Source: a virus. Taken from it: DNA of 24,997 bases. Positions 7,158 through 21,022 of this stretch are shown piece by piece (the stretch's first letter is position 1; each line of letters starts with the position of its first letter). The notes beneath the pieces were generated by a model, which did not search any database, was not told where the DNA came from, and saw only the letters and a list, made by a program, of their open reading frames with translations. Position numbers and translations under genes: made by a program. The DNA lies in the IMG/VR virus record IMGVR_UViG_3300027749_000458, positions 1-24,997 of that record. One strand, 5' to 3'.

Positions 7158-7158
7158 A

Positions 7159-8631
7159 TTACTTCAAAAGTCCGCGTCTGCGAAGTTCAGCTTCAAGTGG
7201 ATTTGCACCAGCAGGAGGTGCAGGATTCCCCGGCTCATTCGCGCCACCAAACACCTTGACGGCACCAAGCTCCTTTTTGCGCTGCGCAAGAAAGTCGTTC
7301 AGAGTGGTGCCTTTGCTGACTGGAATACCTGATACTTCGCCATCTTTTGTGGCTTTTCCGTTCGTGTTAAATGTTGAAACAAAATTCGCTTTATCGGACT
7401 CAAGCTGAGTCTGCCTATCAAAAGCAGAAACCAAAGCATCAAGATACTCAGCTTTTCTTTGAGGACTGTCGTATTTTCCAGGAACCGTTCCGCCTACTGT
7501 TTTTAGTTCCTGCACATTCATGTTTCCACGAGTGCTGTCTCTTAGTGATTTAAAAAGATTACTCGTCACAAGTTGATCAAACCCAGTAAGAAAATTAGAA
7601 ACTTCATCTTGCGCTCCAGTTACAGATTTCCAAGCTTCTTTACCCATTAAAGTAAATTTTCCAGAATCCATTTTTGATCTCAAGGATTCTAGTTCACTTC
7701 TTAATGACTGTGCAGTTTCGGATATCTTTCCATAAGATTGAGAAGCGGTTGTTGCTGCATCTACAATATTGGTCACGGGACGGCTCATAGGCTTTCCGTT
7801 CTCGATTTCTTGAGACATCTTAACTGCCGCCCATTGTTCTTTCATGGCCTTGGCTTGCGTCTCTTTAATGTCTGCTTGAGTCTTAGAAATATCGCTCGCC
7901 CCCTTTAAGGCTTTTGTCGTCAAATCCCATTTTGCGGGATCTGTATTGAACAAAAAGTTTGAAGCTTGAAGTGCTGCAGATGCTCCGGTCGGATCATTGT
8001 CCAAAGTGGACTTGGCTCCATTTAAAAATGTCAAAGAAGCCTGAGCAGCTTGATCTGCTGGGTTTTTATCAACCGCTGCTTGTGCTCCCGCAATGTAGTT
8101 ATCCAAAGAAGACTTGGCTATATCGGGCTTTCCAGCGTTGACAGAAAGCATTACTTCCGAGGCTGCATTGCTTAATGTGTTTGCGGTTTGAGGCAAATGC
8201 TGGAACAGACTGTTCATTGCAGAAAAAGACTGTGGGTCTATTGCTGCTGCTTTCATCGAAAGGCTTTTCAGTTTATTGGCATCCCAAGATGTGGGATCTT
8301 CGGCAAGTTTTAAGGCTTCATTCTGATAAGCCGCAATATCTTGATTCTTGCGTTGAGCTTCTGCTGTCTGAATTCCTAAAAGATTGGTTGCCGCACCAGA
8401 ATGAGCAGCCGCTGCTTGTTGTGCAGCAATGCTGGCTTGAATTTGCTGAAGCTCAAGAGGCTGTTTCTGCTGCGCGAACTGCGCCTGCTGCGCCTGAATG
8501 CCAGCCTGCTGCTGCGCTATCTCACCCTGCTGCTGTAGCCCCTTGAGCTGCTGGATGCCCAGCAGGCTCTGCAGGAAGTTCTGCGCCGGAGGCTGCGGGA
8601 TGTTGATGCTGTAGTCGTATTGTCCAGGCAT
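7159..8631 (-). CDS. DNA-ejection/internal virion protein (P22 gp20 position, 490 aa)
   Basis: A helical protein with a very Gln/Ala-rich N-terminal third, e.g. LKGLQQQGEIAQQQAG and QQAQFAQQKQPLELQQIQ, predicted as a long coiled coil. A charged helical region follows (KETQAKAMKEQWAAVKMSQE, then SLRSELESLRSKMDSGKF). The C-terminal part holds short modules such as GTTLNDFLAQRKKELGAV and LEAELRRRGLLK. Composition, length (P22 gp20 is about 470 aa) and position between the gp7-like and the large ejection protein point to the second ejection protein, which helps form the trans-envelope DNA conduit. Sequence similarity to P22 gp20 itself is not obvious by eye; the call rests on context. Confidence 0.7.
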   Translation of the reverse strand: MPGQYDYSINIPQPPAQNFLQSLLGIQQLKGLQQQGEIAQQQAGIQAQQAQFAQQKQPLELQQIQASIAAQQAAAAHSGAATNLLGIQTAEAQRKNQDIAAYQNEALKLAEDPTSWDANKLKSLSMKAAAIDPQSFSAMNSLFQHLPQTANTLSNAASEVMLSVNAGKPDIAKSSLDNYIAGAQAAVDKNPADQAAQASLTFLNGAKSTLDNDPTGASAALQASNFLFNTDPAKWDLTTKALKGASDISKTQADIKETQAKAMKEQWAAVKMSQEIENGKPMSRPVTNIVDAATTASQSYGKISETAQSLRSELESLRSKMDSGKFTLMGKEAWKSVTGAQDEVSNFLTGFDQLVTSNLFKSLRDSTRGNMNVQELKTVGGTVPGKYDSPQRKAEYLDALVSAFDRQTQLESDKANFVSTFNTNGKATKDGEVSGIPVSKGTTLNDFLAQRKKELGAVKVFGGANEPGNPAPPAGANPLEAELRRRGLLK

Positions 8632-8632
8632 A

Positions 8633-9478
8633 TTATTGTCCTGCTAAATCTGCTAATTGTGCTGTAGTCCATCCAGCGCCAGCAGTGTTGCCTCCGCCAA
8701 AAAGACTTCCAAGACCAAAACTTCCTGCGCCTGTTGTTCCACCTTTTCCAAGAATGCTAAGAAGCGAAGCATTTTGGAATCCACCGGTCAATGCGTTCGA
8801 GATGGCACCCATGCCTTGCGCTTGAGCATTGGCTGCGCCAATAGTTCCAGCGGCCTGTGCGGCGCCTTGGCCCACCATCAGATTGCCGATGTTCTGTGCT
8901 GATTGCTGTCCTGCTGCCGCTGTGCCTGCCGCCGAGGCTTGTCCAACGCCAAGCAGATTCTGAGCAGAGGTCGATCCAAGGCTTGTAAGCCCTGCAAGCT
9001 TGCCATACTGAGACTCAATGAGCTGATTCAAGAGCGCAGGACGGAACTGCCCTAATGCCGCTTGCACGTTGCCGCCGCGAAGTCCTCCGGTTGCTGATGC
9101 GTTCTGGAGAATGCCTTGTTCGCCTTGCTTTGCGAGTTCTTGAAACTGGGCGGACTGTTTGATCTGTTCAATTGCTGCTTGCTGCTCTGCATTGCCTCGA
9201 AGTCCAGCAAGCCCCTGCATCCCTTGAAGAGCACCGGGTCCAGCTTGGATGTACGGCTGTGTTAGATCAGGTTTACCTGCCTCAACATACGGCTTCAAAA
9301 GAGCTTGGATGGCATCAAACTGCCGGCGTTGCTCTTCGATTGCTTGCCCCTGTGCTGCTGCCTGTGTGTTTGCGGCAGAAGTTGCAGCAGCGGCAGATTT
9401 ATCACCAGAACTTTTGCCAATTAAAGCACTTCCAATTCCGGCCACTGCTCCAATTGTTGCTGTTATTGGGTCTGGCAT
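8633..9478 (-). CDS. DNA transfer/ejection protein, P22 gp7-like (281 aa)
   Basis: Belongs to the phage DNA-transfer protein family (gp7 type). Seen: a hydrophobic Gly/Ala N-terminus (ITATIGAVAGIGSALIGK). The family-typical QRRQFDAIQALLKPYVEAGK follows, then GLAGLRGNAEQQAAIEQIK, FQELAKQGEQGILQNASA, TGGLRGGNVQAALGQFRP and LLNQLIESQYGKLAGL. The C-terminal half is an Ala/Gln/Gly-rich low-complexity region ending in a Gly-rich stretch. In P22 such proteins are packed in the head and ejected ahead of the DNA. The ATG at 9478 is preceded by AAGGA at a sensible distance. The upstream gene overlaps it by 16 nt. Confidence 0.83.
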   Translation of the reverse strand: MPDPITATIGAVAGIGSALIGKSSGDKSAAAATSAANTQAAAQGQAIEEQRRQFDAIQALLKPYVEAGKPDLTQPYIQAGPGALQGMQGLAGLRGNAEQQAAIEQIKQSAQFQELAKQGEQGILQNASATGGLRGGNVQAALGQFRPALLNQLIESQYGKLAGLTSLGSTSAQNLLGVGQASAAGTAAAGQQSAQNIGNLMVGQGAAQAAGTIGAANAQAQGMGAISNALTGGFQNASLLSILGKGGTTGAGSFGLGSLFGGGNTAGAGWTTAQLADLAGQ

Positions 9479-9921
9479 ACAAATTCCTTTCGATATGACT
9501 CAAAATCTTCTCCGTAGAGTTTCATAACATCAGATGATAACTCGATGGCTTTATCTGTTCCATGACAAAGCTGCACTGCAATCATGCAAAGATCGTAGAA
9601 CCCAGCGCGCCACGCAAACGACATAGCTCCAGCATTCCAGCTTCGTTCAGCAAGATCACTTGCCTGCCACTTGAGGATATTCACCGCCACAATCGGCAGA
9701 AGCGTAGCCGCATTTGCCGAGAAGAAGTGGTTCAGCGGCATAGCCACAAGCGTGTTCCAAATGCACTTATCGAGATCCTTGCGCTGCACACCGTCGCCGT
9801 CTGCAATATCGTCGAAGACCTGAATGGCATCAAACATCATCATCAGCCACTCCACGGCAGAAGCAGGCAACTGGAAGTGTTCTTCCAGATTCTTTCTTAG
9901 CCATATCGTGTCATCTGCCAT
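9463..9921 (-). CDS. Helical protein at the P22 gp14 position, unknown function (152 aa)
   Basis: All-helical protein with several Trp and hydrophobic helices: VEWLMMMFDAIQVFDDI, WNTLVAMPLNHFFSANAATL, VNILKWQASDLAERSWNAG, SFAWRAGFYDLCMIAVQL. Proteins like this occur just upstream of gp7-like genes in other P22-like phages. Position and length (P22 gp14 is about 150 aa, from memory) suggest a gp14-type assembly factor for the ejection proteins. Residues 37-44 read DDIADGDG, which looks like the DDxxD metal motif of class I isoprenoid synthases, but the rest does not clearly match that fold. The start is well supported: GGGAGG upstream and a preferred ATG. Its stop lies 16 nt inside the next gene. 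Confidence 0.6.
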   Translation of the reverse strand: MADDTIWLRKNLEEHFQLPASAVEWLMMMFDAIQVFDDIADGDGVQRKDLDKCIWNTLVAMPLNHFFSANAATLLPIVAVNILKWQASDLAERSWNAGAMSFAWRAGFYDLCMIAVQLCHGTDKAIELSSDVMKLYGEDFESYRKEFVCQTQ

Positions 9922-10256
9922 TATGTCACTTCCCTCCCGGAGGCTGCGATTGTGAGCGAGGTGGCCGTACCGGCCAGCGTCGAGATGAAACCACCGGACT
10001 CAAGAACTTGCCCTACCAGCTCGGGGCACAGATAAGTTTCCCCAGGGACAATGGAGCGAGTCTTCACAATCAAGTTTGCCGTACCAGCAGAGCCAGCCAA
10101 AGCCACTAGGTTCACGCTAAAGGTCACGTTCATTGTGTTGGTATTCGTGACCGTGAATTTGTCGATGATGGCCTTGCAGTTCGTAGCCGTGTACTGCGTA
10201 GTCTGCGCGGCTTCGGCCTGCTTGGGCGGGATGATGTTTTTGACGGTGACTGCCAT
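9921..10256 (-). CDS. Small beta-rich virion-associated protein, unknown (111 aa)
   Basis: Predicted beta-sandwich: alternating hydrophobic/Thr strands (QYTATNCKAIIDKFTVTNT, MNVTFSVNLVALAGSAGTAN, LIVKTRSIVPGETYLCPELV, GFISTLAGTATSLTIAAS). No signal peptide, membrane segment or catalytic motif. Such proteins of 100-120 aa are common beside tail-hub genes of podoviruses and are generally minor structural or assembly proteins. It overlaps the following gene by one base (TAATG) and lies one base after the C1q-like gene, so it is probably translated in fixed ratio with them. Confidence 0.6.
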   Translation of the reverse strand: MAVTVKNIIPPKQAEAAQTTQYTATNCKAIIDKFTVTNTNTMNVTFSVNLVALAGSAGTANLIVKTRSIVPGETYLCPELVGQVLESGGFISTLAGTATSLTIAASGREVT

Positions 10257-10257
10257 A

Positions 10258-11043
10258 TTAAGAAATGTTGTCGGTAACAGTAAGAATCACAGAAGGGATC
10301 GAGGGGACCGGTGAGCTTGCTGCCGAGGCAAATATCTGGCAATCCGTGTCATCCGTGCTCCACATCAACTCAAAGTAATCTCCGGCGTTGATAGGCAGCA
10401 CAAAGTTCCACGCGGCAACCGTCTCTGCGTTGTTGCCTTGGATACGAATCTTAGTAGCAGAGTAAGGGATGTCAACTCCGTTCACACGGCACCAGATGTA
10501 AACGGCCCCCACGCCACCTGTGGTTTTTTCAAGCTGCGCCGAGAATTGAAAGTTGTAGTAGCCTTCCGTATCGATGTAGATGCGGCTTGTAGGTGTTCCG
10601 GTGTACACACCAAACGAAATGTCGGTCGCGTTCAGCGTCATTCCATACGCCGTGTTAATGACTGCCGCCGTCTGAGTGACCGTGCTGTGGAATGCGCCGT
10701 ACCGCTTGCGCCGAACCTCGTTGATAACCGGAGGCGTCACATCAAGCTGAGTAGCGACCGGTACGGTTGGCGGAGCAATATCAAATCCCTGAGCCACGCT
10801 TGAGTCTGGAGGCGCCAAAGCCAGTAATTCCACTGCATCAGCTAGTCTCGCTATAGCGGACACCGCTTGCTGTGCCCTAGAATCGGCATTCTGTGCGTTT
10901 ATAGAGGCTTCTTCAACCAAGGTAGTGTTTTGATTGACCTGAGACGGAACAACATCAAAAAGCTGCTCAAAAGCTCGGATCGCTCGCTGCGACGGCAGGA
11001 ACTTGGCAAGCTCAGATCGAAGTAATCTGTTTGGGCCGTCCAT
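10258..11043 (-). CDS. Tail-needle-position protein with C1q/TNF-like C-terminal domain (261 aa)
   Basis: From ATG 11043. Residues 1-30 (NRLLRSELAKFLPSQRAIRAFEQLF) form a basic helix seen at the N-terminus of many phage virion proteins. Residues about 35-85 are an Ala-rich helix (INAQNADSRAQQAVSAIARL), likely a trimeric coiled coil, followed by a Pro-rich linker. Residues about 117-261 form a jelly roll of C1q/TNF type: SRIYIDTEGYYNFQFSAQL, YIWCRVNGVDIP and LPINAGDYFELMWSTDD. It directly follows the gp10-like gene, where P22 encodes the tail needle gp26; the Sf6 needle also ends in a TNF-like knob. A TTG at 11055 lies inside gp10 and is less likely. Alternatives: a fibre or decoration protein. 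Confidence 0.65.
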   Translation of the reverse strand: MDGPNRLLRSELAKFLPSQRAIRAFEQLFDVVPSQVNQNTTLVEEASINAQNADSRAQQAVSAIARLADAVELLALAPPDSSVAQGFDIAPPTVPVATQLDVTPPVINEVRRKRYGAFHSTVTQTAAVINTAYGMTLNATDISFGVYTGTPTSRIYIDTEGYYNFQFSAQLEKTTGGVGAVYIWCRVNGVDIPYSATKIRIQGNNAETVAAWNFVLPINAGDYFELMWSTDDTDCQIFASAASSPVPSIPSVILTVTDNIS

Positions 11044-11044
11044 A

Positions 11045-12448
11045 TCAAACAGCAAGCGGTTCTACGCGGACCTCAAGTCGCGCCACAGCAAGTTGCGCGT
11101 CACTGGTTCCCCGGAATCGTTGTGAGCGCCATTGCCGCATACGACCCTGCTGAAGCCAAGACAGACGTTTACCGCGCTGCCCTGTCTTACCGGCCTTGCA
11201 AACACGTTCTTGGCTCCAAGTTACGCCGTCGGTGGTGTACGATGTCCAGATACTGGGATCGGCGCCAAAAGTGGCGTTCCCAGTCAGGGAAACCAGCTCC
11301 AGCTCGTGGAAAATCAAGCCATGGCTTTCATTGTACAGAATCATCGTCTCAAAATCCCAACCAACAACTTCGCCCCAATGAGAGGAAAGCGTGTCGGTGG
11401 CATTTCCAAAATTGACACTTTTTGTGTCTCCTACAATCCACTTGTTGTAAATCCAGATAAAGTTGCGTGCCCGGTACTGAGCTTTCCCCACCACACTGGT
11501 TGTCATCGTGTACCAGACTGGGGTGCCAGCCTTGGCTGAACCTGCCCCGTCAAACGCAAGCGTCTGATCCGGCAAGTGGATGTACATGTGCCGAAAATCT
11601 TTATCCACACGAGACTCCATATGCACCTGAGAAAGTTCCTCCTCGGTGTACTCAGCAAGAATCTGGTCCACTTCCCTGCTTGAAACCTTTGCAGCTATTC
11701 CACCATTAATCATCCAGACTGCCACGGATTCGTTTCTGCCACCGCCCAAGAAAGCGATGGTATCCATGAACAAACAGCAGGCATTAGTGCCCACGACTCC
11801 ACGCTGGATCTGGGCGCCTTCAACGCGCTGAAACGGAAACAAGCTGCCACCCACGTTGTTGAACACTTCAATGGTGTTTCGGTTGAGCGCATAGACCTCG
11901 TTCTTGACCTTCATAAGAGCCACGATTGGATCAGGGTCTGCTTCAGAAGAACCGTATTTTAGTGGGTTTACCGCAAACGGATTATCAAGATCGGTCACCA
12001 CCAAATAGGTGCCGTCAGTGGTCATAAAGTACCCGTCTACCCACACAAAATCAATCACTGTTCCAAGATCAACATCAGTAACCTGTTGAAGACCGGCATT
12101 TGGCTTGTACAGAAACAACTTTCCGCTGGAAGCCACTGCCAGATAATCAAACGAGTAGTCAAACGTGACTTGTCCCGTGCCGCCTACGTCTCCAATGACG
12201 GTAACGACGTTAGTGCTCGAGATCGACACCAATTTGGTGCCCATGACGCGGTAGAGCAGACCATTCCAACTGATCGCACCTCGATCTATGCCGGGGCCTG
12301 CCCCGAGAGCTACAAGCCCATCCCCAGGGCGGAAGTACCCATCAGAAATACCTTGCTTCTGGATAATCGGCACCATGTTGCGCGGGTACTCCACGCGGAA
12401 GTCACCGATCCCATTAGTGTAGATGCCGTTGAGGATGGGGATCTGCAT
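11045..12448 (-). CDS. Packaged-DNA stabilisation / tail hub protein, P22 gp10-like (467 aa)
   Basis: Member of the P22 gp10 family (Phage_stabilise, PF11134), which joins the gp4 ring and closes the portal vertex after packaging. Seen in order: EYPRNMVPIIQKQGISDGYF, RPGDGLVALGAGPGIDRGAI, LLYRVMGTKLVSI, DYLAVASSGKLFLY, DGYFMTTDGTYLVVTDLD, PFQRVEGAQIQRGVVGTN, EYTEEELSQVHMES, FRHMYIHLPDQTLAFDGA and a C-terminal WTSYTTDGVTWSQER followed by basic RGKRLSWLQQGRMRQWRSQR. These match the successive blocks of P22 gp10 (472 aa) in order and spacing. The fold is a beta-propeller-like hub. Its start overlaps the upstream stop by TAATG, and the next gene starts 1 nt after its stop. Unlike in P22, gp4 is not adjacent but about 5.4 kb upstream. 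Confidence 0.9.
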   Translation of the reverse strand: MQIPILNGIYTNGIGDFRVEYPRNMVPIIQKQGISDGYFRPGDGLVALGAGPGIDRGAISWNGLLYRVMGTKLVSISSTNVVTVIGDVGGTGQVTFDYSFDYLAVASSGKLFLYKPNAGLQQVTDVDLGTVIDFVWVDGYFMTTDGTYLVVTDLDNPFAVNPLKYGSSEADPDPIVALMKVKNEVYALNRNTIEVFNNVGGSLFPFQRVEGAQIQRGVVGTNACCLFMDTIAFLGGGRNESVAVWMINGGIAAKVSSREVDQILAEYTEEELSQVHMESRVDKDFRHMYIHLPDQTLAFDGAGSAKAGTPVWYTMTTSVVGKAQYRARNFIWIYNKWIVGDTKSVNFGNATDTLSSHWGEVVGWDFETMILYNESHGLIFHELELVSLTGNATFGADPSIWTSYTTDGVTWSQERVCKAGKTGQRGKRLSWLQQGRMRQWRSQRFRGTSDAQLAVARLEVRVEPLAV

Positions 12449-12864
12449 TATTGCGGATGAACTTGTTGTTCAAGAGCCGAAATTCTTTGAGCAAGCGCAT
12501 CAAGCTGGGCCGAAAGGCCGGTGACTTGTCCAATGCCGTGCGTGTGTGATGCAGCAGCAAAATCAGCCACATTTGAACCTAAAATATCTCCACATCCAAT
12601 AAAATCAAGTGGAGTGTGCTGGTGATCCACAATTGCAGCACCAATCGAGGCCGGGCTGATAGCATCTGCCTGACCAGCGGCGTGTGTGCCTGCGTGAGGC
12701 GCTGCGATGGCTAGGATCTTGCGGACAATACCAGTCTTCAGCTTGGTCCAAAGTGAACCGTTTGATGGGTCGATGGCAAGCTCTCTAACCGCTACGTCTG
12801 ACGGACTTGGGGCAGAGCCGTCGTTTACTTTATTGTTCAACAGAATAGTTGGCATGGATTTCAT
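12448..12864 (-). CDS. Short tail-fibre-like protein (138 aa)
   Basis: Carries modules typical of phage tail fibres. The N-terminal part (ILLNNKVNDGSAPSPSDVA, RELAIDPSNGSLWTKLKTG) resembles the trimeric N-terminal module of fibre proteins. The middle part has AAPHAGTHAAGQADAISPA and DHQHTPLDFIG, DFAAASHTHGIGQVTGL, where H-x-H pairs may bind iron as in known fibre tips. The C-terminus is a coiled coil (LSAQLDALAQRISALEQQV). ATG codons at 12864 and 12855 are both possible; the first is used. It is the first gene after the terminator at 12875-12915 and is overlapped by one base with gp10, so it needs read-through or a promoter I cannot see. Confidence 0.7.
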   Translation of the reverse strand: MKSMPTILLNNKVNDGSAPSPSDVAVRELAIDPSNGSLWTKLKTGIVRKILAIAAPHAGTHAAGQADAISPASIGAAIVDHQHTPLDFIGCGDILGSNVADFAAASHTHGIGQVTGLSAQLDALAQRISALEQQVHPQ

Positions 12865-12874
12865 TTAGCACTAA

Positions 12875-12915
12875 CCCAAAACAAATCAAGCCGCCGGATT
12901 GGACAGCGGCTTGAT
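12875..12915 (-). terminator. Strong intrinsic terminator
   Basis: On the minus strand ATCAAGCCGC and GCGGCTTGAT form a perfect 10-bp stem (plus-strand positions 12885-12894 and 12906-12915) with an 11-nt loop. It is followed by TTGTTTT. It sits 10 nt after the stop of the beta-helix-repeat gene. Confidence 0.85.
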
Positions 12916-12925
12916 AGTGACTTGG

Positions 12926-13900
12926 TTAAGTCCAGCCAAAGGCAGCGTTAACTTCTTCCGATGTATTATAGCCAGTAGTGCTCAACAGGATTCCTTGATC
13001 GTATCCATAATAAAGGCCGTCAGATTGCTTTGCTGATCCATTGAAATATGCATACATTGTGCCTCTATCAAAGAAATACCAGCGAGTTGTGCTGGGATCT
13101 TTGTATGTTGTGTAGTCCTCAGGAGATTCACTGACAACTTGTCCCAAGATATACAAGACACCACTGCGTCCTGCTGTTCCGTTTCCTAGGCCGTTAATGT
13201 TTTGATTTTGAGCAACTGCATCTGCTTGATACACATATGATGTTGCCAATGCTCCATTAAACCATTTTCCGCTTTGCGAGCCAAGTCCTGTGTACTGATT
13301 TACGCCAGTGTTTACAATAAGCCAGGCCTCAAAAACAGTCTGCGAATAAGCGTCAAAGTCTGCTCGCGCATCAGCTTCCGAGCCATACTCTGTTGAGTTG
13401 TATGCCCACTGTCCATAGTGGCTTGCCGCTGAATCAACTGCAATGCCATTAGACATCACAAACTGAGTTACACCAACATTGGTTGCAAGCCACCCCGCAT
13501 AGTTAAATTGGCTATCAATTGCGTCTCCCTGATTATTAAAGGGGCCATTGTGCATGTAAAACCACTTGTCGTAATTCACTCCAGCTTCAGTGTATTGCTG
13601 CACGGCCTGCATTCCATCTGGAAGGGTGCCATTTCTTGCGGCGATCCATGCTTCAAATGTGGAGTCGGTTACAGTTCCAGAAACGGTTCCGTTGTTCACT
13701 GCTGTGGAGGCAAACGAAGCATTTCCACTGACTGTTGCGCCTGCCTTGTTTTCGGCAGTGCCTTCAAACACAGCATTGCCAGTCACTGTCCCGCTGTTCG
13801 CGGACCCATCCTGAAATGTCACGTTTCCGGTGACAGTGCCAAAGTTTTCTGAGCCGGCGCCAAAAGTGGCGTCACATGCGATTGAGATAGATGGATTCAT
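12926..13900 (-). CDS. Virion/fibre-like protein with repeated short beta-turns (324 aa)
   Basis: The first about 77 residues are a run of 8-12 residue repeats (FGTVTGNVTFQDGSANSG, TVTGNAVFEGTAENKAG, ATVSGNASFASTAVNNG). They are typical of the short beta-solenoids found in many phage fibre proteins. The rest (about 80-324) holds at least three imperfect repeats, each beginning FEAWIAARNG, YAGWLATNVG or FEAWLIVNTG. Each later contains a KWF or QWAY motif and a Gly/Asn-rich turn. Aromatic, Tyr-rich, no Lys-rich patches, no signal peptide. Function unknown, probably adhesion. ATG 13900 gives MNPSISIAC; a longer frame from 13981 overlaps the preceding gene and crosses the terminator, so it was rejected. 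The gene stands alone between two terminators. Confidence 0.72.
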   Translation of the reverse strand: MNPSISIACDATFGAGSENFGTVTGNVTFQDGSANSGTVTGNAVFEGTAENKAGATVSGNASFASTAVNNGTVSGTVTDSTFEAWIAARNGTLPDGMQAVQQYTEAGVNYDKWFYMHNGPFNNQGDAIDSQFNYAGWLATNVGVTQFVMSNGIAVDSAASHYGQWAYNSTEYGSEADARADFDAYSQTVFEAWLIVNTGVNQYTGLGSQSGKWFNGALATSYVYQADAVAQNQNINGLGNGTAGRSGVLYILGQVVSESPEDYTTYKDPSTTRWYFFDRGTMYAYFNGSAKQSDGLYYGYDQGILLSTTGYNTSEEVNAAFGWT

Positions 13901-13904
13901 AATA

Positions 13905-13949
13905 GAAAGAAAAAAGAGCAGGGATGGCCGGTATTTAGCCAGCCACCCC
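13905..13949 (-). terminator. Intrinsic terminator with direction-specific G-U pairs
   Basis: The minus-strand RNA forms an 11-bp stem: GGGGUGGCUGG pairs with CCGGCCAUCCC (arms at 13939-13949 and 13921-13931), loop of 7. The U-rich run CUCUUUUUUCUUUC follows within 3 nt. Two pairs are G-U on the minus strand and would be A-C mismatches on the plus strand, so the hairpin is built for leftward transcripts. Only about 20 nt separate the stem from the next ATG at 13900. Confidence 0.82.
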
Positions 13950-13958
13950 GCAGTTGTG

Positions 13959-15296
13959 TTAGCGATTAAACGCCACGCCATTGAGCGTGACGATACCTGT
14001 TGTGCCGCTAACGGAACAGGTCAAGTTAGCCGAAGGATTTGCCACCGAGGTCAACGTCAGATCATTTGATCCAATATTGATGCTCTGCGGCTGCGTCCAA
14101 GTGTCTAGGTCGGCAGACCCAGAACTTAGTAGCGTTACGTCAGTGGTTCCGCTTGGAAGCTGCGTTGCCGCCTGAGTCCGGGCGCTGTCGCCAGACCAGT
14201 TAGCAAGCGTGCCCCAATCGTTACCAGAGCTGGCGTAGAAGTAGGCCCCGATCACGGGAGTGGTGTTGCCTCCACCACCCCCGCCATTAAAACCCGAGAA
14301 CGTGCCTCCGTCCAAAGTGCTGTTCTCAGTAAGAATCACACCTGAATCAGTAGGAACCGAACCTGCGCCAATACTGCCACCCGTGATGCTCACGTTGTTA
14401 GCATTCTGCGTAGACATCGTGCCCAAGCCAGCAATCGAGCTTTCTGCGCTGGAAAGACGAGAATCAAGATTCTGTCCTTCAATCGTGGAAACGCGAGTGC
14501 TTACTCCGTCGATTTCGCCCTGAAGCGTTGTCTGAGCAGAACTAACAGCGGAGCTGACTTTGGAGTCAACTTCAGCAGAAGAATCTACACCGAGGTTCGT
14601 ACGGGAAATTGCGGCATCAGCGAGATCGCTGAGGTTAGCGGACTTCTTCACCGAAGCGTCAGCGCCAGCCTGTGCTGTCGCAGCAGCCGAAACAGCAGAG
14701 TCCGCAGTGGACTGAGCAGTCGTGATGCGGCTGTCGAGGTTCTGGTTTTCCAGCGTGGTAACGCGGGAAGAAACTCCAGCGATGCTGGAAGCTAAAGCGG
14801 TAGCAACGTCCGAGCCAGCGGCCAGGGCGTCAGCAATTTCCTTTAGGGTATCGAGCGTCGAAGGACTCCCATTGATCAACGCGGCAATTGCTGCGTTGGT
14901 GTAGGCATCGGAGGCGCTTTTGGAGGTGCTGATTTTGCCGTCAACTTCAGCGGAGCTATCAACAGACAGGTTGCTGCGAGCCGAAGACACATTGGCAAGA
15001 TCACTCAGGTTTGAGGCGCTTTTAAGCGAAGCATCTGCTCCGGCCTGAGCCGCAGAGGCTGCGCTTGTTAGCGTATCAAGAGCGTCTTGGAGACCAGTAA
15101 CGTCAGAGATAACGTGGGAGTGTACCGCACGAGCAAACGCGCCAGCACTCTCAAAGGTAAGGATTGTTCCATCATTCTTTTTGATGAACAACTTACCATC
15201 AGCAGTGTTAAGCGCGATTTGCCGCAAGGGCAACTCGGCGGACGTAGGGACAACGCCAGATGTGGCGCTGTATTTAAGCAGGAATTGATTGGCCAT
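13959..15296 (-). CDS. Tail fibre protein with tandem fibre repeats (445 aa)
   Basis: N-terminus (LPLRQIALNTADGKLFIKK, NDGTILTF) is the fibre-anchor module common in phages. It is followed by the linker HSHVISDVTGLQDAL. Two long repeats follow: residues 83-122 and 208-247 share AQAGADAS, NLSDLA, SVDSSAEVD or GVDSSAEVD. Residues 175-196 and 265-286 share a heptad segment with QNLDSR. The module GSPSTLDTLKEIADALAAG is typical of fibre shafts. Then comes a six-Gly hinge (GFNGGGGGG) and a C-terminal beta domain with NDWGTLANWSGDSARTQAAT and LPSGTTDVTLLS. The last part may be the receptor-binding tip. It has no Shine-Dalgarno sequence but an A/T-only leader. A terminator follows 10 nt after the stop. 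Confidence 0.8.
   Translation of the reverse strand: MANQFLLKYSATSGVVPTSAELPLRQIALNTADGKLFIKKNDGTILTFESAGAFARAVHSHVISDVTGLQDALDTLTSAASAAQAGADASLKSASNLSDLANVSSARSNLSVDSSAEVDGKISTSKSASDAYTNAAIAALINGSPSTLDTLKEIADALAAGSDVATALASSIAGVSSRVTTLENQNLDSRITTAQSTADSAVSAAATAQAGADASVKKSANLSDLADAAISRTNLGVDSSAEVDSKVSSAVSSAQTTLQGEIDGVSTRVSTIEGQNLDSRLSSAESSIAGLGTMSTQNANNVSITGGSIGAGSVPTDSGVILTENSTLDGGTFSGFNGGGGGGNTTPVIGAYFYASSGNDWGTLANWSGDSARTQAATQLPSGTTDVTLLSSGSADLDTWTQPQSINIGSNDLTLTSVANPSANLTCSVSGTTGIVTLNGVAFNR
14556..15050 (-). repeat. Duplicated fibre-shaft segment
   Basis: Two segments of about 120 bp (14931-15050 and 14556-14675) encode nearly the same 40 residues of the fibre shaft. They differ at many synonymous sites, which indicates an old duplication. 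Confidence 0.75.
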
Positions 15297-15342
15297 ATTT
15301 TATTTTTTTACTGAGTTTGGGTGTTTACTTTTCTGAGGGAAA

Positions 15343-16893
15343 TTAGAATGTAGTCAAAAGCACTCGCTTCCAGACATTTGTAGCGGTGCACACATATAGC
15401 CAACTGCCCGCGTTATCCACAGCAATCTGGCCAACCTGTCCGCTTGAGGTTGCAGTGGCGGGAATAGCAACATGGTTTGTGTTAGTTGTGCGTACGCCTG
15501 CTGCGTTCGTCAAATACATCTGATCGTTAAACCACTCAACGTAATGCGCTACTGGAGTTGTTACCAGTGCAGCACCTGCCTGAAACTGAAACGGAACATT
15601 TGTTGTTGAGTTTGCAAGAAAGCTTTGCCGTCCTGTAAATTGATTGAACCCCGTAATTGCGTTTGCAGTCCTATAACTCACCCGAATCACTGTGATTTGA
15701 GATGTCCCAACAGTTATGTCTGCGTTTGCGGTGGTATTAAAAAATGCCATCACATAACCAGATTGGCTTGCGCCAAAACGAGTCATGTACATTCCATTTC
15801 GCGCCGTACCTGTAAACCAAGCTGGACGAGTAAAAACAGGTTGAACGCCTACCGCTCCAAGAGTTGTTGCCTCCCAAAAACCATTTTGTTTTGTGTCAGC
15901 TTGTAGGGTAAAAGCAATAATGTCGCCTAACGCAATTGTGTAAGAGTCCGCAGTGAACACTCCCGTTGAGGTCACGGTAAGAACATTACCTACCATTGTT
16001 GCCCCAATAACACCTGCTGTCTGCGCCTCAACCATCCGCATCCCAACTCCAAGGCTTGAGATGGCAGCTTGAGCCGTGGTTGATGCAGTGCCGCCGTTGG
16101 CAATTGCCACGGTTCCGGTGACATTAGATGCCGTTCCGGTCGTGTTCTGGTTCAGTGTTGGCACATCTCCGGCCTGAATTGCGGACATGGCCACATTAGT
16201 ACCGTTTCCACGCAAGAACTGCCCAGAAGTAGTTGCTCCAGCCAAGGCATTAATTGCAGCCTGCTGTGTACTTGCTCCCGTGCCTCCACGATTGACGGCA
16301 ACAGCAACTCCATTCCATGTTGCGTTTGTGATTGAGCCAGGGTAATCGAGCGTATTGGTGCTCCAAGTTACATTGGATGGAGCTTGTTCATGTCGCTCCC
16401 ATGATCCTGCTGCGATGGAGTTAGACAGCAGGGAGACTGCTGAGAATCCACCAGAAGGAATGGTAGCAATAAGCGTGTTAGAGTTGTTGTTGACGAGAAT
16501 TGATCCGCTGCTCTGATTGTTGTTGAACAAGTAGACAACGCCATTTTGAAGCGTAGTTGCATCAGGCAGCTTAATTGTCTGACCACCGGAACCCGTGACT
16601 AAATAACTTGGAGCAGAAGCAACAGTCAGCACAACTTGAGTGCCAGATGCCGTGATGTTGCTAAAGCCTTCAATAAGAGAGTTTGCCGTGATGTTCTGAT
16701 TTGAATCGCGAACAACTACATCACTTGACACTGAAAGTGTGCGGTTTGCGCTTAAGTCACCGCCACCAGTAAGACCAGTCCCAGCAGAGATCGTGGTAGT
16801 CGAACTAGGAACCCCAAGTGACGTTCTTGCAGCAGCCTTGTCTGCTGACTGCATGAAAGAATCAATATCCGTTGATACCGTTAGATTAGCCAT
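15343..16893 (-). CDS. Tail fibre protein (516 aa)
   Basis: Rich in Thr, Ser, Ala, Gly and Asn, with known fibre motifs. Near the N-terminus are TTISAGTGLTGGGDLSANR and TLSVSSDVVVRD. In the middle are AVNRGGTGASTQQAAINAL, GQFLRGNGTNVAMSAIQ, AGDVPTLNQNTTGTASNV and VTGTVAIANGGTASTTAQ. A folded region follows (about residues 290-410; ALGDIIAFTLQADTKQNGFW, PAWFTGTARNGMYMTRFG). The C-terminus is TSSGQVGQIAVDNAGSWLYV and CTATNVWKRVLL, a common terminal strand pair of fibres. No chaperone domain or enzyme motif was seen. It starts 6 nt after the stop of the small RPDG-repeat gene, and the next fibre gene begins 46 nt downstream. Likely a host-binding side fibre; its trimeric state is inferred. Confidence 0.8.
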   Translation of the reverse strand: MANLTVSTDIDSFMQSADKAAARTSLGVPSSTTTISAGTGLTGGGDLSANRTLSVSSDVVVRDSNQNITANSLIEGFSNITASGTQVVLTVASAPSYLVTGSGGQTIKLPDATTLQNGVVYLFNNNQSSGSILVNNNSNTLIATIPSGGFSAVSLLSNSIAAGSWERHEQAPSNVTWSTNTLDYPGSITNATWNGVAVAVNRGGTGASTQQAAINALAGATTSGQFLRGNGTNVAMSAIQAGDVPTLNQNTTGTASNVTGTVAIANGGTASTTAQAAISSLGVGMRMVEAQTAGVIGATMVGNVLTVTSTGVFTADSYTIALGDIIAFTLQADTKQNGFWEATTLGAVGVQPVFTRPAWFTGTARNGMYMTRFGASQSGYVMAFFNTTANADITVGTSQITVIRVSYRTANAITGFNQFTGRQSFLANSTTNVPFQFQAGAALVTTPVAHYVEWFNDQMYLTNAAGVRTTNTNHVAIPATATSSGQVGQIAVDNAGSWLYVCTATNVWKRVLLTTF

Positions 16894-16899
16894 ATCGCG

Positions 16900-17049
16900 T
16901 TAGGGTCTGATGTAAAATGAAGTTCCATCGGGCCGGTTGTAAAATGCAACTCCATCTGGACGATGATACGAGTTCGTCACTGGTGGGGGTGTTGCACCGC
17001 CCGCAGTGGCCGGAACCTTCGATCTGCGTCTGGAATAGAACCGTATCAT
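16900..17049 (-). CDS. 49-aa protein with RPDG-x-x-FY repeat, unknown
   Basis: A short gene that fits exactly between its neighbours. ATG 17049 directly follows the TAA of the upstream gene, and its TAA at 16900 lies 6 nt before the next start. The protein has a strongly basic N-terminus (MIRFYSRRRSK), a Pro/Thr/Gly linker (VPATAGGATPPPVTNSY) and a C-terminal tandem repeat (HRPDGVAFYN, RPDGTSFYIRP). The repeat looks like a paired beta-hairpin. Exact fit, lack of any other reading frame and clear repeat structure support it as real. I do not recognise the family. It may be a small connector or capping protein for fibres. Confidence 0.6.
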   Translation of the reverse strand: MIRFYSRRRSKVPATAGGATPPPVTNSYHRPDGVAFYNRPDGTSFYIRP

Positions 17050-17352
17050 TTAGAGTCCGCGTCCCAAGATGATATGCAGAGATCCGGTCCCACCCGGAGA
17101 GATATAAGCCACGACGTTGTCGTCGAGCGTCTTCCCAAGAGAAACCTGAGAACCGGCCACAACAGGGTAGTCTTTGGTGCTGGCTGTTATTGTATCAGCC
17201 GAAGATCCCACACGCACATACACCGTGGTTGTTCCAAGGTTTGTAAGCACTACAGACTCGGACGTATTCGGGCCAAAATTAGTAAATGCACTAGAAGCTC
17301 CAGGTGCTACTGTGACTCCGCCGTTGTAAGCTGGTTGAAAAGGGATTTGCAT
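17050..17352 (-). CDS. Small beta-rich phage protein (100 aa)
   Basis: Predicted compact beta-sandwich. Strands visible as VTVAPGASSAFTNFGPNTS, ESVVLTNLGTTTVYVRVGSS, KDYPVVAGSQVSLGKTLDD, NVVAYISPGGTGSLHIILG. Proteins of this size and pattern, resembling small decoration or neck proteins, are frequent between head-completion and tail genes. No membrane segment or catalytic motif. It follows the 154-aa gene by 11 nt and is directly joined to the RPDG-repeat gene. The role in the virion is inferred from location and composition. Confidence 0.62.
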   Translation of the reverse strand: MQIPFQPAYNGGVTVAPGASSAFTNFGPNTSESVVLTNLGTTTVYVRVGSSADTITASTKDYPVVAGSQVSLGKTLDDNVVAYISPGGTGSLHIILGRGL

Positions 17353-17363
17353 AAACGTAGTTA

Positions 17364-17828
17364 CTAGGCGACCCGATACCAGTTCTTGAGAATCGGTTCA
17401 AATTTAAGAGTAAAAAATCCGTTGGCAGCAAGCGAGCTAGGCGCCCCAATCACATTGCCGCCGTTGCCGTTGATTGTCAATGTTCCTACCGATTGAGTGC
17501 AATTTACAAGCACTTCTTGGCCTTCAAGAACATTAAACACCGGAGGCAACGTGATTGTGCCGGTGGCAAAGCCTGCTGTAGGCGTAATAATCAACCAGAC
17601 GCTGTTGCTTTCAGATTCAATCGGAACAGACCATCCGGTGGATGATGGAGCAAAATACTGCAGCGTTTTATAGGGATTTACCGTTCCGCCACCAAACTCA
17701 GGATTAGCATTGTTAATGTAATCCACCAGAGTCCCAACACTTGTACGGTAATCTTGAGCGTTGACATTCACCGCAAAGTAAGTCGATGCGGTAAGCTGAT
17801 CCAGCAGTGAAAAGCGTTCAATAGCCAT
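17364..17828 (-). CDS. Phage structural protein with short helical N-terminus and beta body (154 aa)
   Basis: Residues 1-40 (MAIERFSLLDQLTASTYFAV, NVNAQDYRTSVGTLVDYIN) resemble the N-terminal module of a widespread family of minor virion proteins. A Gly/Pro turn follows, then strands (SVWLIITPTAGFATGTITLP, GQEVLVNCTQSVGTLTING, NGFFTLKFEPILKNWYRV) characteristic of fibre-associated beta domains. It sits one base after the gp4-like gene, at the front of the receptor-binding region. I would expect a tail-associated or neck protein. No function is known to me. Confidence 0.62.
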   Translation of the reverse strand: MAIERFSLLDQLTASTYFAVNVNAQDYRTSVGTLVDYINNANPEFGGGTVNPYKTLQYFAPSSTGWSVPIESESNSVWLIITPTAGFATGTITLPPVFNVLEGQEVLVNCTQSVGTLTINGNGGNVIGAPSSLAANGFFTLKFEPILKNWYRVA

Positions 17829-17829
17829 A

Positions 17830-18315
17830 CTAAGGAGAGTTTCTGAATTGACCCTGGTCGTTTGGCAACAACTGGATCGGATTTTCGTTGGGAATATCTA
17901 CAAATACACGCTCTGTGCGCTTGTATCCAGCACCAAGTGGTAGCGTTCTTGGGTATTGCATCTCAAATGGCATCGCGGCCTGTACGAGAAGCTGGTCATA
18001 CAACTGTTTTGCTAAAGCTTTTGTCTCAGGAGCAACAACTTTGCCGTAAGAAGGCGCCAACCGAACCGCTAGATTGAGCACAAGAGCCTCATTTGCCTGC
18101 AAAGGAGTGTCAATCTGCTCCTCCATGTGGCTGTTATTGGGTGTCACAGGCAGCGGATACCCAATCTTGATGTTCTTGGCATACCAAGAGCTGACCATCA
18201 GATCCATACGGCGCACGGCACTCATAAGTTGATCAGGAGTTAGGTCGAAAATGTACGACGCAATCCCAATCTCCTCAAAAGCCTGCTCCAGAATCTGTTT
18301 TTTGGTCCAGCCCAT
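17830..18315 (-). CDS. Head-tail adaptor / tail accessory factor, P22 gp4-like (161 aa)
   Basis: Matches the P22 gp4 family, which forms the ring below the portal that starts tail assembly. Seen: KKQILEQAFEEIGIASYIFD, LTPDQLMSAVRRMDLMVSSW, YAKNIKIGYPLP, and ANEALVLNLAVRLAPSYGK with VVAPETKALAKQLYDQL. The sequence of helices and the GIAS, LDxMVxxW and IGYP blocks are the signatures; length is close to P22 gp4 (166 aa). The C-terminus (NPIQLLPNDQGQFRNSP) would contact gp10. P22 gp4 has muramidase activity in vitro; no catalytic residue can be assigned here. It lies one base after the HeH-domain gene. Confidence 0.85.
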   Translation of the reverse strand: MGWTKKQILEQAFEEIGIASYIFDLTPDQLMSAVRRMDLMVSSWYAKNIKIGYPLPVTPNNSHMEEQIDTPLQANEALVLNLAVRLAPSYGKVVAPETKALAKQLYDQLLVQAAMPFEMQYPRTLPLGAGYKRTERVFVDIPNENPIQLLPNDQGQFRNSP

Positions 18316-18316
18316 G

Positions 18317-18661
18317 TTATTTCAGTGCTTCTTCAATTAGTTGCGAAAGTCTTTTGTCAGAATAGCGACCATCAAACTTAATTCCAAGCTCAGTAGCCTT
18401 GGTTTCAAGTTCTTTTCGTGTAGGAGGAGCAGAATCGTCCAACACAGGCTCAGAAACAGGCTCCACGGGCTTGGAAACGAGTGTTTCCGCAAATGACTTT
18501 GACTTTGATGCCTCAATGGCTTCTCCATGATTTAAAAACCAGCCTTCTAAAAGTTTTTCGGACAACTCTTCAGCATTCTGAACCACCAAAAGATCAAAAG
18601 TCCCGCCATTGCCTTGATGCTTGCCTTTGCCTTTGTAAACGAAACAAGGAAATTCACTCAT
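18317..18661 (-). CDS. Small protein with C-terminal HeH/LEM-like domain (114 aa)
   Basis: N-terminal part (FPCFVYKGKGKHQGNGGTF, LLVVQNAEELSEKLLEGWF) is a small alpha/beta module often seen in head-region phage proteins. A Ser/Pro/Glu-rich linker follows (about residues 55-78). The C-terminal region 79-113 (PPTRKELETKATELGIKFD, GRYSDKRLSQLIEEAL) has the helix-extended-helix pattern of HeH/Rho-N-like domains, which bind nucleic acid. The combination is common next to coat or head-completion genes; its exact role is unknown. Its ATG overlaps the stop of the 49-aa gene by 4 nt. Confidence 0.7.
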   Translation of the reverse strand: MSEFPCFVYKGKGKHQGNGGTFDLLVVQNAEELSEKLLEGWFLNHGEAIEASKSKSFAETLVSKPVEPVSEPVLDDSAPPTRKELETKATELGIKFDGRYSDKRLSQLIEEALK

Positions 18662-18807
18662 TTCTTTGGCTTTTTAGCTTCAGCTTTGACCTTGCGTGCT
18701 GTGCTTAGAGCAATTGCAATTGCTTGCTTCTGAGGCTTTCCGGCGTGCATCTCTGTCGAGATGTTTTTGGAAATCGTCTTTGGTGAGTATCCCTTTTTTA
18801 GTGGCAT
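18658..18807 (-). CDS. 49-aa basic protein, DUF6496-like
   Basis: A very small Lys/Ala/Ser-rich protein: MPLKKGYSPKTISKNIS, TEMHAGKPQKQAIAIAL, STARKVKAEAKK. The core MPLKKG, TISKNI, TEM..GKPQKQA.AIAL is a well-known short phage sequence (DUF6496 type) of unknown function. Net charge is strongly positive, so nucleic-acid contact is plausible. ATG 18807 lies 20 nt after the coat-gene terminator, and its stop overlaps the next start as ATGA, which supports the reading. It is the first gene beyond that terminator. Confidence 0.82.
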   Translation of the reverse strand: MPLKKGYSPKTISKNISTEMHAGKPQKQAIAIALSTARKVKAEAKKPKK

Positions 18808-18814
18808 AAGGACT

Positions 18815-18853
18815 TGATACACAAAGGGGAGAGCGGAGTCAACCGCTCTCCCC
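18815..18853 (-). terminator. Strong intrinsic terminator after the coat gene
   Basis: On the minus strand GGGGAGAGCGG and CCGCTCTCCCC form a perfect 11-bp stem (arms at 18843-18853 and 18826-18836) around the loop TTGACT. TTTGTGTAT follows. It lies 15 nt after the coat stop codon. The U-tract is modest, so partial read-through is likely. Confidence 0.82.
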
Positions 18854-18868
18854 CAGTGAAGCCTAAGT

Positions 18869-20167
18869 TTAGGCAGACTGACCGAACAGGATGATCCCGC
18901 TCATTTCAGGCTGCTTGTTCACAACACCAAAGAGGGTATCGAGACGATACTTGATCTTCATCGTGTTGATGTCGTAGAACTTCTGCATGACCAGTTCGAT
19001 GCCTTGGTCGGTAGAAGCGCGGATGACATTGACGCCAGCGTCCGAAGGCACTGCGTAGCGACCGGGCAGGATCTCAATCGCATCTTTCTGCCAGAAACAG
19101 TTGATGAATCCAGCGGCTGTGTTGAGCCAAACGATTGCGCTGTTGGCCGCCTTCGTGTTGACAACGCAGTTCTGATACTCAGCCGAAGCGGGAGCGTCAA
19201 CTTGGTTGGAGATGATCGGAGGAGTGATCTGGAGGTGCGTGCCGTCAACCACCGCAACAACGCGGAAGGTCTTGAGCTGACCCGTGCTCTGCTTGGTGAT
19301 GTGATGCACAGCTTCAACAGCAGCGATGGTGAACGCATCACCGGGCTGCACGTAGGTCGTCTGAGACACAGTAATGGTCTGGAAGCGGTTATCAACGTTA
19401 AGACGCTCGCTTGTAGTAGGCGAGGTCGTAACGGCTTTAGGCACCCAGTAGTTACTAGCCGAGTCACGAGTATCAATCGTAATGGCACCACCGGAAGCAG
19501 CACCGATACGGTTGGCGTAATCCAACTTGTAGGTGCCAAAGCTAGCAACTTCACCAACAAACGACTTCTCGTAACCAGTCAAGGCTTTGCCGGCCAGCGT
19601 CTGACGGGAAGCCAGATTGCTTGCCATCCCGTTGTAGTCACGGGTGGAGAGAGCCAAGTAACGGTCTTCAAACTGCACACCCTGTTCGTTAAAGATGGCC
19701 TCACACTGAGCGACGTCATCGTAGCCGGTAGCCGCCGTGGTACGCTTGACAACAAGCGAGCCCAAGGAAGAAGCCACGTTCAACGTCTGCACGTTGATGT
19801 CAGAAGCGAGCTTCTGTTTGGCTGCATTGCCGAGGCGCTGCTCTTGGAGAGCGTCACGAAGTTCAGTAGCCGTCATGATCCAAGGCACAGAACGGTTGAA
19901 ACCGATCTGCGAAGGAACAGCAAGCTGCGTGTACTGGCTGAAGTTATCGGTCTGATCCGTACCTGCAAAGGAACGGCTAATGTAAGGCTGTGGCCTCCAG
20001 ATCGTGTTGTTGGTGCGCTCCATCATCGTCTGATCCGTATTGTAGATCGAGACGTTGCGGGACATGACAAGTGCGTCCTGGAACCCCTCAAGGAGGTTTT
20101 CAAACGCTACGCGCTCTTCCTTAGAAAAGCTGTTATAGCTGATTCCGGCTGGTGCGGGTGCGGGCAT
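18869..20167 (-). CDS. Major capsid protein, P22 coat (gp5)-like (432 aa)
   Basis: Coat protein of the P22 family (PF11651), an HK97-fold protein with an inserted I-domain. Seen: NNTIWRPQPYI at 53-63, aligning with NTIW in P22, and RDALQEQRLGNAAKQKLASD, matching the spine-helix region. VASSLGSLVV follows, then NVDNRFQTITVSQTTYVQPGD and VVAVVDGTHLQITP (about 257-316), which match VDNRFATVTLS and VVRVVDGTHVEITP of P22 gp5. The C-terminus LDTLFGVVNKQPEMSGIILF matches the P22 end block. Length 432 against 430 in P22. It follows the scaffold gene by 12 nt with no Shine-Dalgarno sequence, surprising for the most abundant virion protein; the leader is A/T-only. A strong terminator follows. Confidence 0.93.
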   Translation of the reverse strand: MPAPAPAGISYNSFSKEERVAFENLLEGFQDALVMSRNVSIYNTDQTMMERTNNTIWRPQPYISRSFAGTDQTDNFSQYTQLAVPSQIGFNRSVPWIMTATELRDALQEQRLGNAAKQKLASDINVQTLNVASSLGSLVVKRTTAATGYDDVAQCEAIFNEQGVQFEDRYLALSTRDYNGMASNLASRQTLAGKALTGYEKSFVGEVASFGTYKLDYANRIGAASGGAITIDTRDSASNYWVPKAVTTSPTTSERLNVDNRFQTITVSQTTYVQPGDAFTIAAVEAVHHITKQSTGQLKTFRVVAVVDGTHLQITPPIISNQVDAPASAEYQNCVVNTKAANSAIVWLNTAAGFINCFWQKDAIEILPGRYAVPSDAGVNVIRASTDQGIELVMQKFYDINTMKIKYRLDTLFGVVNKQPEMSGIILFGQSA

Positions 20168-20179
20168 ATATTATTAAGA

Positions 20180-21022
20180 TTAAGATTTTAACTGCTTTTT
20201 GAAAGCCATAACTTTAGTGTAATCCCCGGTACGTGCGGCTTCATCACGCAACCGTTCCAACTGAACGCTGGAAGAACCAGATCCACTATTGCTTACAATT
20301 CGTTTTTCGGGAGGCGGGAGTTGTTTGCGAGTCACACTCAGTTGAGTTTCGAGTTTCGCTACCGCGAACGCGAACTGAACTGGGTCAGTAATCTCTGCCA
20401 GTTCCTTGGCCTTCTTTGGGTTTTTGCCTAGGGCATAGACCATTACGGCGGGATTCTGGGCGCCTTGAAGAATAATGCCTTGCTGTGTTACGCTCAGACT
20501 TTCGAGTACAGCTTCCTCGGCATCTTGGAAATCAGATACTTTCAACCCAGTCTTAGACTGGTTGTAGCCTTCCAACTTCTTCTGCCAAGTCTCCTGCTCG
20601 GCTTGCTGTTTGGATCTTTGCTTGGCTTCAGCCTCATCGGCTTGACGCTTGCGCTCGAACCAGCCAGCAAGTTCGTTCTCAAACTTGTCTGAATCGTAAT
20701 CGCATGCTTCAAGTGTTGGTTTTTTACCGAGAACAACAGGATTATTCTCTGCTGCCGGCATTACCATCTTGAGCTTTTCCTCGAGTTCACGCTTCTCGCG
20801 TTGTAACTCTCGGTAGCTTTTCCTCAAGTTCTTCACCCATTCGGGTGCTTGCTTCTCTTCCTCTTCGGGAGGTGGCGATTCTCCTTTGATACTGATCACA
20901 ACTTCTTCCGCTGCTTCCTCCGTTTGCTGCTCAGGCTCCGCTTGCGCGGCCTCTGGCTGGTTTAGGAGTTCTTCAGTTTCCGCTGTTGCTATGGTATCTT
21001 CTGCCGGTTCGTTTGTATTCAT
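20180..21022 (-). CDS. Scaffolding protein, P22 gp8-like (280 aa)
   Basis: Directs procapsid assembly and exits before packaging. Seen: an acidic, disordered N-terminus (TATAETEELLNQPEAAQA, PPPEEEEKQAPEWVKNL). A charged coiled coil follows (KSYRELQREKRELEEKLKM and ERKRQADEAEAKQRSKQQ), then YALGKNPKKAKELAEITD. The basic C-terminal helices QLERLRDEAARTGDYTKVMA and FKKQLKS correspond to the coat-binding helix-turn-helix of P22 gp8 (ASKGDVETYRKLKAKLKG). Length is near P22's 303 aa. ATG 21022 is chosen over a TTG at 21046 that would start 3 nt after the portal stop. A small hairpin (GGGA/TCCC) lies just upstream of the ATG and could tune translation. Confidence 0.9.
   Translation of the reverse strand: MNTNEPAEDTIATAETEELLNQPEAAQAEPEQQTEEAAEEVVISIKGESPPPEEEEKQAPEWVKNLRKSYRELQREKRELEEKLKMVMPAAENNPVVLGKKPTLEACDYDSDKFENELAGWFERKRQADEAEAKQRSKQQAEQETWQKKLEGYNQSKTGLKVSDFQDAEEAVLESLSVTQQGIILQGAQNPAVMVYALGKNPKKAKELAEITDPVQFAFAVAKLETQLSVTRKQLPPPEKRIVSNSGSGSSSVQLERLRDEAARTGDYTKVMAFKKQLKS

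Follow-up and report, generated by a model that had tools for sequence, protein, structure and literature searches.

A probable fibre gene between conserved terminator-like hairpins, and a candidate dnaX-type frameshift site in the neighbouring fibre gene, in the late operon of a P22-like podovirus

The virus record analysed here (24,997 bases, possibly a fragment; hereafter the window) contains a repeat-rich gene, X, lying alone between two strong hairpins that both face leftward, which raises the question of whether X is an expression unit of its own within the late operon or a regular part of the fibre genes around it. A sequence-only reading of the same DNA had chosen the former and described a moron-type cassette; the structures that it described are real, and the unit that it derived from them is wrong. 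The account considered reasonably probable here, as judged from comparison of sequences, is that X is an optional fibre/adhesin gene swapped together with the C-terminal domain of the adjacent fibre gene F445, that the two hairpins (UP and DOWN) act as partial terminators, and that a −1 frameshift sets the tips of F445.

The minus strand of the window carries the late module of a P22-like podovirus, an assignment based on the joint presence of the P22-type coat protein (PF11651, 6.3e-85), gp4 (PF11650, 6.2e-11) and gp10 (PF11134, 1.6e-36) among the Pfam matches. Four fibre-type genes (F516, F445, X and D138) lie ahead of gp10, and the gene order coat-gp4-154-100-F516-F445-X-D138-gp10 is seen repeatedly among the relatives retrieved; the locus probably represents the host-recognition segment of the operon. 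The genes directly concerned are as follows.

13959..15296, minus strand: F445, fibre gene with an N part, a Gly-rich hinge and a swappable C-terminal domain
12926..13900, minus strand: X, 324 aa (ATG at 13900, stop at 12926), probable virion fibre/adhesin
12448..12864, minus strand: D138, short fibre-like gene that follows the cassette (open reading frame list and comparison with relatives)

Relatives were sampled by gp10 (the best 80 of 597 loci), by X (28 loci) and by the F445 N part (the best 80 of 505, overlapping the other sets), and further loci were obtained by the F445 C-domain (38) and by DNA pattern (42 + 37), with much overlap; all junction counts below refer to distinct sequences among the relatives retrieved, identical ones having been removed. 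Some DNA-pattern matches were set aside, L144, L147, L150 and L156 as they lie without fibre context and L174 as it encodes a different Gly-rich protein. Among phage records F445 has no match at E<=1e-5, and tblastn of X against 50,697 such records gave none at E<=0.001. Eight loci with gp10 relatives at 50-59% come from genomes of Pseudorhodoferax, Massilia and Acinetobacter and from MAGs of several phyla, and they do not settle the host of the window phage. X, D138 and F516 have no match at E<=0.001 in these eight loci, one of which (L252) starts within gp10 and is uninformative on upstream genes, and F445 gives a single 24-residue match, in L247.

As the earlier reading had noticed, X is rich in repeats. 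Its N-terminus (residues ~1-80) consists of GTVTGN-type repeats modelled with high confidence as a beta-solenoid, which is followed by W/Y-rich repeats of the type YxAWLAANxGVNQYxGxGxxNGQWAYNSTEY, their number varying between members; complete members of the family range from 211 to 363 aa, and residues 240-309 of the window's X are poorly modelled. A longer open reading frame for X begins at 13981, within the preceding gene, and the alignment with relatives starts at the 13900 ATG. The best structural matches of residues 1-111 are bactofilins, with Z scores of 9.2 and 9.0 (6rib: Z 9.2, rmsd 2.6, 83 residues aligned), and the bactofilin family PF04519 is matched by 7/22 X proteins at E<=0.01, the window's X falling below the cut-off (17.2 bits against a gathering score of 27.9). 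X shares with bactofilins the solenoid shape of its N-terminus, no cytoskeletal role being implied, and differs from bactofilins proper in this sub-threshold Pfam score. Beyond the solenoid no clear family or fold match was obtained; searches with X of PDB sequences (A1 profile, E<=0.1) and of PDB and viral structure libraries (E<=0.001) gave no match, and phrog_36934, to which no function is assigned, is matched by three of the 22 X proteins. At its end the X of the sister phage L004 (L004:6860-7492) has a Gly hinge and then a domain sharing 58% identity over 62 aa with the end of F445 in L051, a relative devoid of X; tips appear to pass from one fibre gene to another. With its variable repeats and, in L004, a Gly hinge and a domain of the F445 type, X behaves as a fibre/adhesin gene, and its product is provisionally identified as a probable virion fibre/adhesin protein.

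X is optional, being present in 26 of 36 distinct junctions before D138. In seven of the ten X-less junctions (L005, L040, L051, L158, L162, L177 and L196) F445 directly adjoins D138, while the other three are uninformative, L002 and L037 being cut off too close and L006 being rearranged. The F445 C-terminal domains after the Gly hinge differ among relatives, including those without X. The extent of the exchange can be read from L004, whose identity with the window is 97.4% over the 3,465 bases that lead from the coat gene up to the F516 start, 92.2% over the 2,522 bases spanning D138 through gp10, and 90.5-91.8% within F445; F516 is also partly exchanged in this pair. Blastn homology with L004 stops at 14289, inside F445, and restarts at 12855, near the D138 start, so the swapped unit comprises the F445 C-domain, UP, X and DOWN.

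12856..14288, minus strand: block without blastn homology to L004, containing the F445 C-domain, UP, X and DOWN (blastn)

The block exchange is thus evident at sequence level from the L004 comparison. Insertion junctions, for which the moron proposal had looked to relatives, are found not at the hairpins but inside F445 at 14289 and near 12855, the former being the final base of a GGGTTTT heptamer.

The hairpins flanking X, together with a third one in the same operon, are located as follows.

13918-13951, minus strand: UP, terminator-like hairpin between F445 and X, with a U-rich tract at 13901-13917 (fold, shuffles)
12885-12915, minus strand: DOWN, terminator-like hairpin before D138, with the loop UCCAAUC at 12897-12903 and a U tract at 12876-12884 (fold, shuffles)
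18825..18854, minus strand: intra-operon terminator-like hairpin after the major coat protein gene (hairpin scan, fold, relatives)

The bracketing of the single gene 12926-13900 by two strong leftward hairpins is confirmed, as the folds of the two gaps are far more stable than dinucleotide shuffles (UP z -5.17, DOWN z -4.75; 0/200 shuffles equal each). The stem before X, described earlier as 11 bp, has 11 pairs in a simple scan and extends in the fold to 13 with a one-base bulge, followed by UCUUUUUUCUUUCUAUU; the stem after X, taken for a perfect one of 10 bp, is indeed a strong hairpin, understated in length, with 12 pairs including one G-U, followed by UUGUUUUG. Both contain the G+C-rich stem and the subsequent U tract of intrinsic terminators, and each scores 13.9 by the d'Aubenton-Carafa formula, where values above 0 are regarded as a pass. 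The number of terminator-like sites in 5001-24997 shows no excess over chance (22, shuffle mean 22.0), and the case for the hairpins therefore rests on stem length, gap location and conservation: UP, DOWN and the post-coat hairpin have the three longest stems in the scan (11-12 pairs, separate others having at most 7), and all three are placed in intergenic gaps.

UP is present in 21/21 distinct readable junctions before X, with stems of -19 kcal/mol or better, and 17 of these pass the terminator score and four fail it; several unrelated stem sequences occupy the one location among relatives, and several, including those of L017 and L101, have poor U tracts. DOWN is present in 34/36 distinct junctions before D138, with or without X, seven X-less relatives among them, and 29 of the 36 junctions pass the score and seven fail; it is missing in L006 and in L105, where the D138 start is extrapolated from a 29% match. 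The post-coat hairpin occurs in 41/41 distinct junctions, 28 of which pass, and control windows inside gp10 never do (0/156, loci not de-duplicated). In 19 distinct DOWN sequences 96.9% of the cells are paired and 11 of the 12 pairs have changed on both sides, a level reached by 0/500 shuffles and nowhere near attained by slid controls. The sequence-only reading had stated that the same arrangement in distant relatives would speak against a moron, and such conservation is largely found, extending as far as L090 (58% identity in F445), where both hairpins occur and DOWN fails the score; L105 (47% identity in F445) has UP alone.

The heptaloop of DOWN is kept (UCCAAUC; UUCGAUC in L177:2220-2250) while the stem changes, and its sequence, close to UCCAAUC, resembles a tRNA T-loop. 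Hairpins with a TYCRAWY loop occur only at the DOWN location among the loci examined. A tRNA origin for this hairpin was considered and rejected, as a tRNA search of the window and an Rfam search of 12000-19000 (up to E=1) both gave no match. The post-coat hairpin is of different types at one position: near relatives have a UUGACU loop, and many distant relatives have a CUUCGG tetraloop.

Terminator-like hairpins are thus usual within this late operon, and UP and DOWN are probably conserved intra-operon, partial intrinsic terminators at which some transcripts would end. The argument that internal terminators are costly, and that those beside X mark it as special, fails to single out X, since such hairpins are usual in the operon, the post-coat hairpin being found in every junction, and the P22-like phage L has an internal terminator too. 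It lies in a late operon to which a single promoter is ascribed, and the authors call its role unknown and suggest partial termination among the options (PMC8022706). The present case differs from that of phage L in that two hairpins flank one fibre gene and that conservation and covariation are documented. UP travels with X, and DOWN stays before D138 with or without X; the hairpins that follow F445, X and the coat gene probably end part of the late transcripts crossing the fibre genes, by which they would step the transcript level down behind each fibre gene and protect mRNA 3' ends. These conserved, covarying hairpins would represent a concrete case for why P22-like late operons have internal terminators.

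Two other explanations of the cassette have to be weighed against partial termination around a fibre gene. If X were a moron, it would be a recent arrival with its own transcription unit and two shielding terminators, serving the lysogen or the infected cell and not the virion. The optional presence of X and the terminator-like hairpins on both sides agree with this, and P22-like phages do have a moron in the late operon (PMC2629481), so that X resembles lambdoid and P22-like morons as an optional late-operon gene beside terminators. However, no minus-strand sigma-70-like site was found in 13561-24997 (scan of sigma-70-type sites only), DOWN exists also where X is absent, the arrangement is conserved across relatives, and the L004 junctions lie inside F445 (14289) and near the D138 start (~12855) and not, as those of a clean insertion would, at the hairpins. 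X further departs from morons in its virion-like protein, which shares a domain with F445, and in being exchanged with part of this neighbouring gene. What stands of the cassette proposal are the leftward hairpins and the optional nature of X, and what falls is the independently expressed unit bounded by them; a moron is very improbable. The hairpins might otherwise be no terminators at all but RNA elements with a part in protecting or processing the 3' ends of mRNAs, or in setting the translation of X and D138. The weak U tracts of some UP hairpins, the conserved T-loop-like loop of DOWN and the starts of X and D138 without a Shine-Dalgarno site point in this direction, but the terminator score passed by 17/21 UP and 29/36 DOWN junctions and by 0/156 controls argues for termination, and the RNA-element explanation is considered doubtful.

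The exchange edge at 14289 lies in a hinge of F445 that contains the elements of a putative −1 frameshift site.

14289..14295, minus strand: slippery heptamer G_GGT_TTT in the F445 frame (sequence, relatives)
14287..14289, minus strand: TAA stop of the −1 frame right behind the heptamer, which would yield a 336-aa short F445
14256..14282, minus strand: stem-loop of 10 bp with a 7-nt loop, 6-nt spacer after the heptamer; proposed frameshift stimulator
13962..14252, minus strand: F445 C-terminal domain that the frameshift would omit

Codons 333-348 of F445, a block picked after inspecting the pairwise profile, show 2 synonymous changes against 42.4 expected among 24 distinct in-frame sequences (Poisson p 4e-16; 0/100,000 codon resamplings; lowest of 168 windows); the lowest window not overlapping them has about eleven times their rate, and both flanks vary. 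The heptamer is present in 22/27 distinct hinges, or in 21/26 when the locus fetched solely by the heptamer pattern is left out, where the 27 are those fitting the anchor used for the count; L206 is outside this set, its hinge TCT TTT AAT containing no canonical heptamer. The five hinges without the heptamer (L005, L040, L051, L177 and L196) bear other C-termini, and L158 and L162 keep it ahead of a different C-terminal domain, Laminin_G_3 (1.1e-17 and 5.2e-15). The sequence is GGG TTT TAA in 20/20 in-frame slippery hinges, so that the −1 frame stops immediately. The site therefore combines a heptamer of the X_XXY_YYZ form in the right frame, purifying selection on synonymous sites, a 3' stem in the window (6-nt spacer, 10 bp) and, as in dnaX, a −1 stop directly behind the slippery sequence, and a dnaX-like frameshift is likely to control the fibre tip. 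On mammalian ribosomes few heptamers are as prone to shifting as G_GGU_UUU (PMC5009743). Only 15/22 slippery hinges have a Shine-Dalgarno-like GGAGG placed 9 nt before the heptamer, and in 11 of 22 loci from more distant phages, all 11 distinct, the protein ends naturally at this point (...DGGSF stop). The model of the F445 C-domain gives weak structural matches only, the best being 8iqe (Z 3.5).

The window's stem, folded from the base after the heptamer, has a z of -4.0, or of -5.1 if pairing of the heptamer is included. Its pairing is kept by double changes at 2/10 pairs, in L158 and L162, which have the lectin domain behind it; with six hand-picked rows, 35/500 shuffles reach the pair count, 158/500 the pair types and 4/500 the score. 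The 3' structure is weak in L088 (z -1.52). In L004 and L105 the layout is reversed, as the 0 frame stops right behind the heptamer and the C-domain carries on in the −1 frame, where it is 46-50% identical to that of the window. As a protein this −1 frame domain is still conserved, 29 residues being invariant in 6 sequences, and no ATG, GTG or TTG occurs between the last stop and the domain. As to possible IMG/VR assembly errors, L004 and L105 are separate contigs whose sequences after the heptamer differ. In neither of these two, which would depend most on frameshifting, does a simple 3' structure fold better than shuffles (L004 z -0.46, L105 z 0.4), so a shift there, if real, needs another stimulator.

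The near-invariant hinge might instead be a recombination linker or another DNA or RNA site, L004 and L105 then being truncated fibres followed by dead sequence. The exact coincidence of the L004 exchange junction with the heptamer is what a linker would give, and variable fibre modules divided by Gly-rich motifs are known elsewhere (PMC7230728). On the other hand, the other swapped C-termini (L005, L040, L051, L177 and L196) are joined without the heptamer hinge, stem pairing is maintained by double changes when the domain changes, and the domain that L004 and L105 have in the −1 frame remains conserved as a protein; this explanation is regarded as unlikely.

Under the frameshift account, normal reading of F445 in the window phage would give the 445-aa fibre with its distal domain, and a fraction of the ribosomes may slip to the −1 frame at GGGTTTT and meet the TAA, giving a 336-aa tipless fibre; in L004 and L105 the roles would be reversed, the slip adding the tip. 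Translation would then set how many fibres carry a tip relative to those that lack it, and recombination in or beside the conserved hinge swaps the tip along with X, as the L004 comparison shows. It is somewhat probable, on the strength of these signals, that this P22-like family uses a dnaX-type −1 frameshift at a fibre hinge to place fibres bearing an exchangeable, lectin-like tip and fibres devoid of it on the same virion, the heptamer serving also as exchange edge and a one-base change flipping the layout. A real frameshift would let the phage tune by translation alone how many receptor-binding tips each virion bears, and swap tips by recombination at a point that preserves the switch; virion isoforms made by frameshifting, seen with capsid and tail proteins, would then include host-recognition fibres.

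F445 shares with bacterial dnaX (tau/gamma) a long form in the 0 frame, a short form from a −1 slip followed by a near-immediate stop, and a heptamer plus a 3' stem. It differs from dnaX in being a phage fibre gene known here from sequence, in its heptamer (GGGUUUU versus AAAAAAG) and in the presence of both layouts within one phage group; dnaX itself seems to occur with the long form either in frame or by shift (PMC5009743). T3/T7 gp10, Lactobacillus phage A2 and SPP1 gp17.1* produce, as proposed for F445, a virion protein with and without a C-terminal domain from one gene, and such frameshift-added virion domains are often Ig-like (PMC5009743, PMC9022992). Those are capsid or tail proteins extended by the shift, whereas F445 is a fibre gene that the shift would shorten in the window phage. 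The published frameshift cases found in the open-access literature, as far as covered by the sources cited, concern capsid proteins, tail proteins, tail chaperones and one lysin that is discussed, and include no tail-fibre gene (PMC4283147, PMC9022992, PMC7230728, PMC7260188, PMC12846349, PMC3931495, PMC9965538, PMC5009743).

Some further features of the operon may be mentioned. By eye, a Shine-Dalgarno sequence is not evident and leaders are A/T-rich at many late genes (e.g. those starting at 20167, 15296, 13900 and 12864), and a few late genes have one (e.g. starts 9921 and 1988); this scarcity in the window is possibly a hint to the host. A 49-aa open frame at 18658-18807, which lies past the coat hairpin and ahead of the following gene, encodes a small basic protein (MPLKKGYSPKTISKNI...), and its stop overlaps the start of that gene as ATGA. 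An additional 90-aa Lys-rich gene lies between D138 and gp10 in two relatives (L162:10302-10574 and L158:2189-2461) and is absent from the window, so that the D138/gp10 junction is another optional site.
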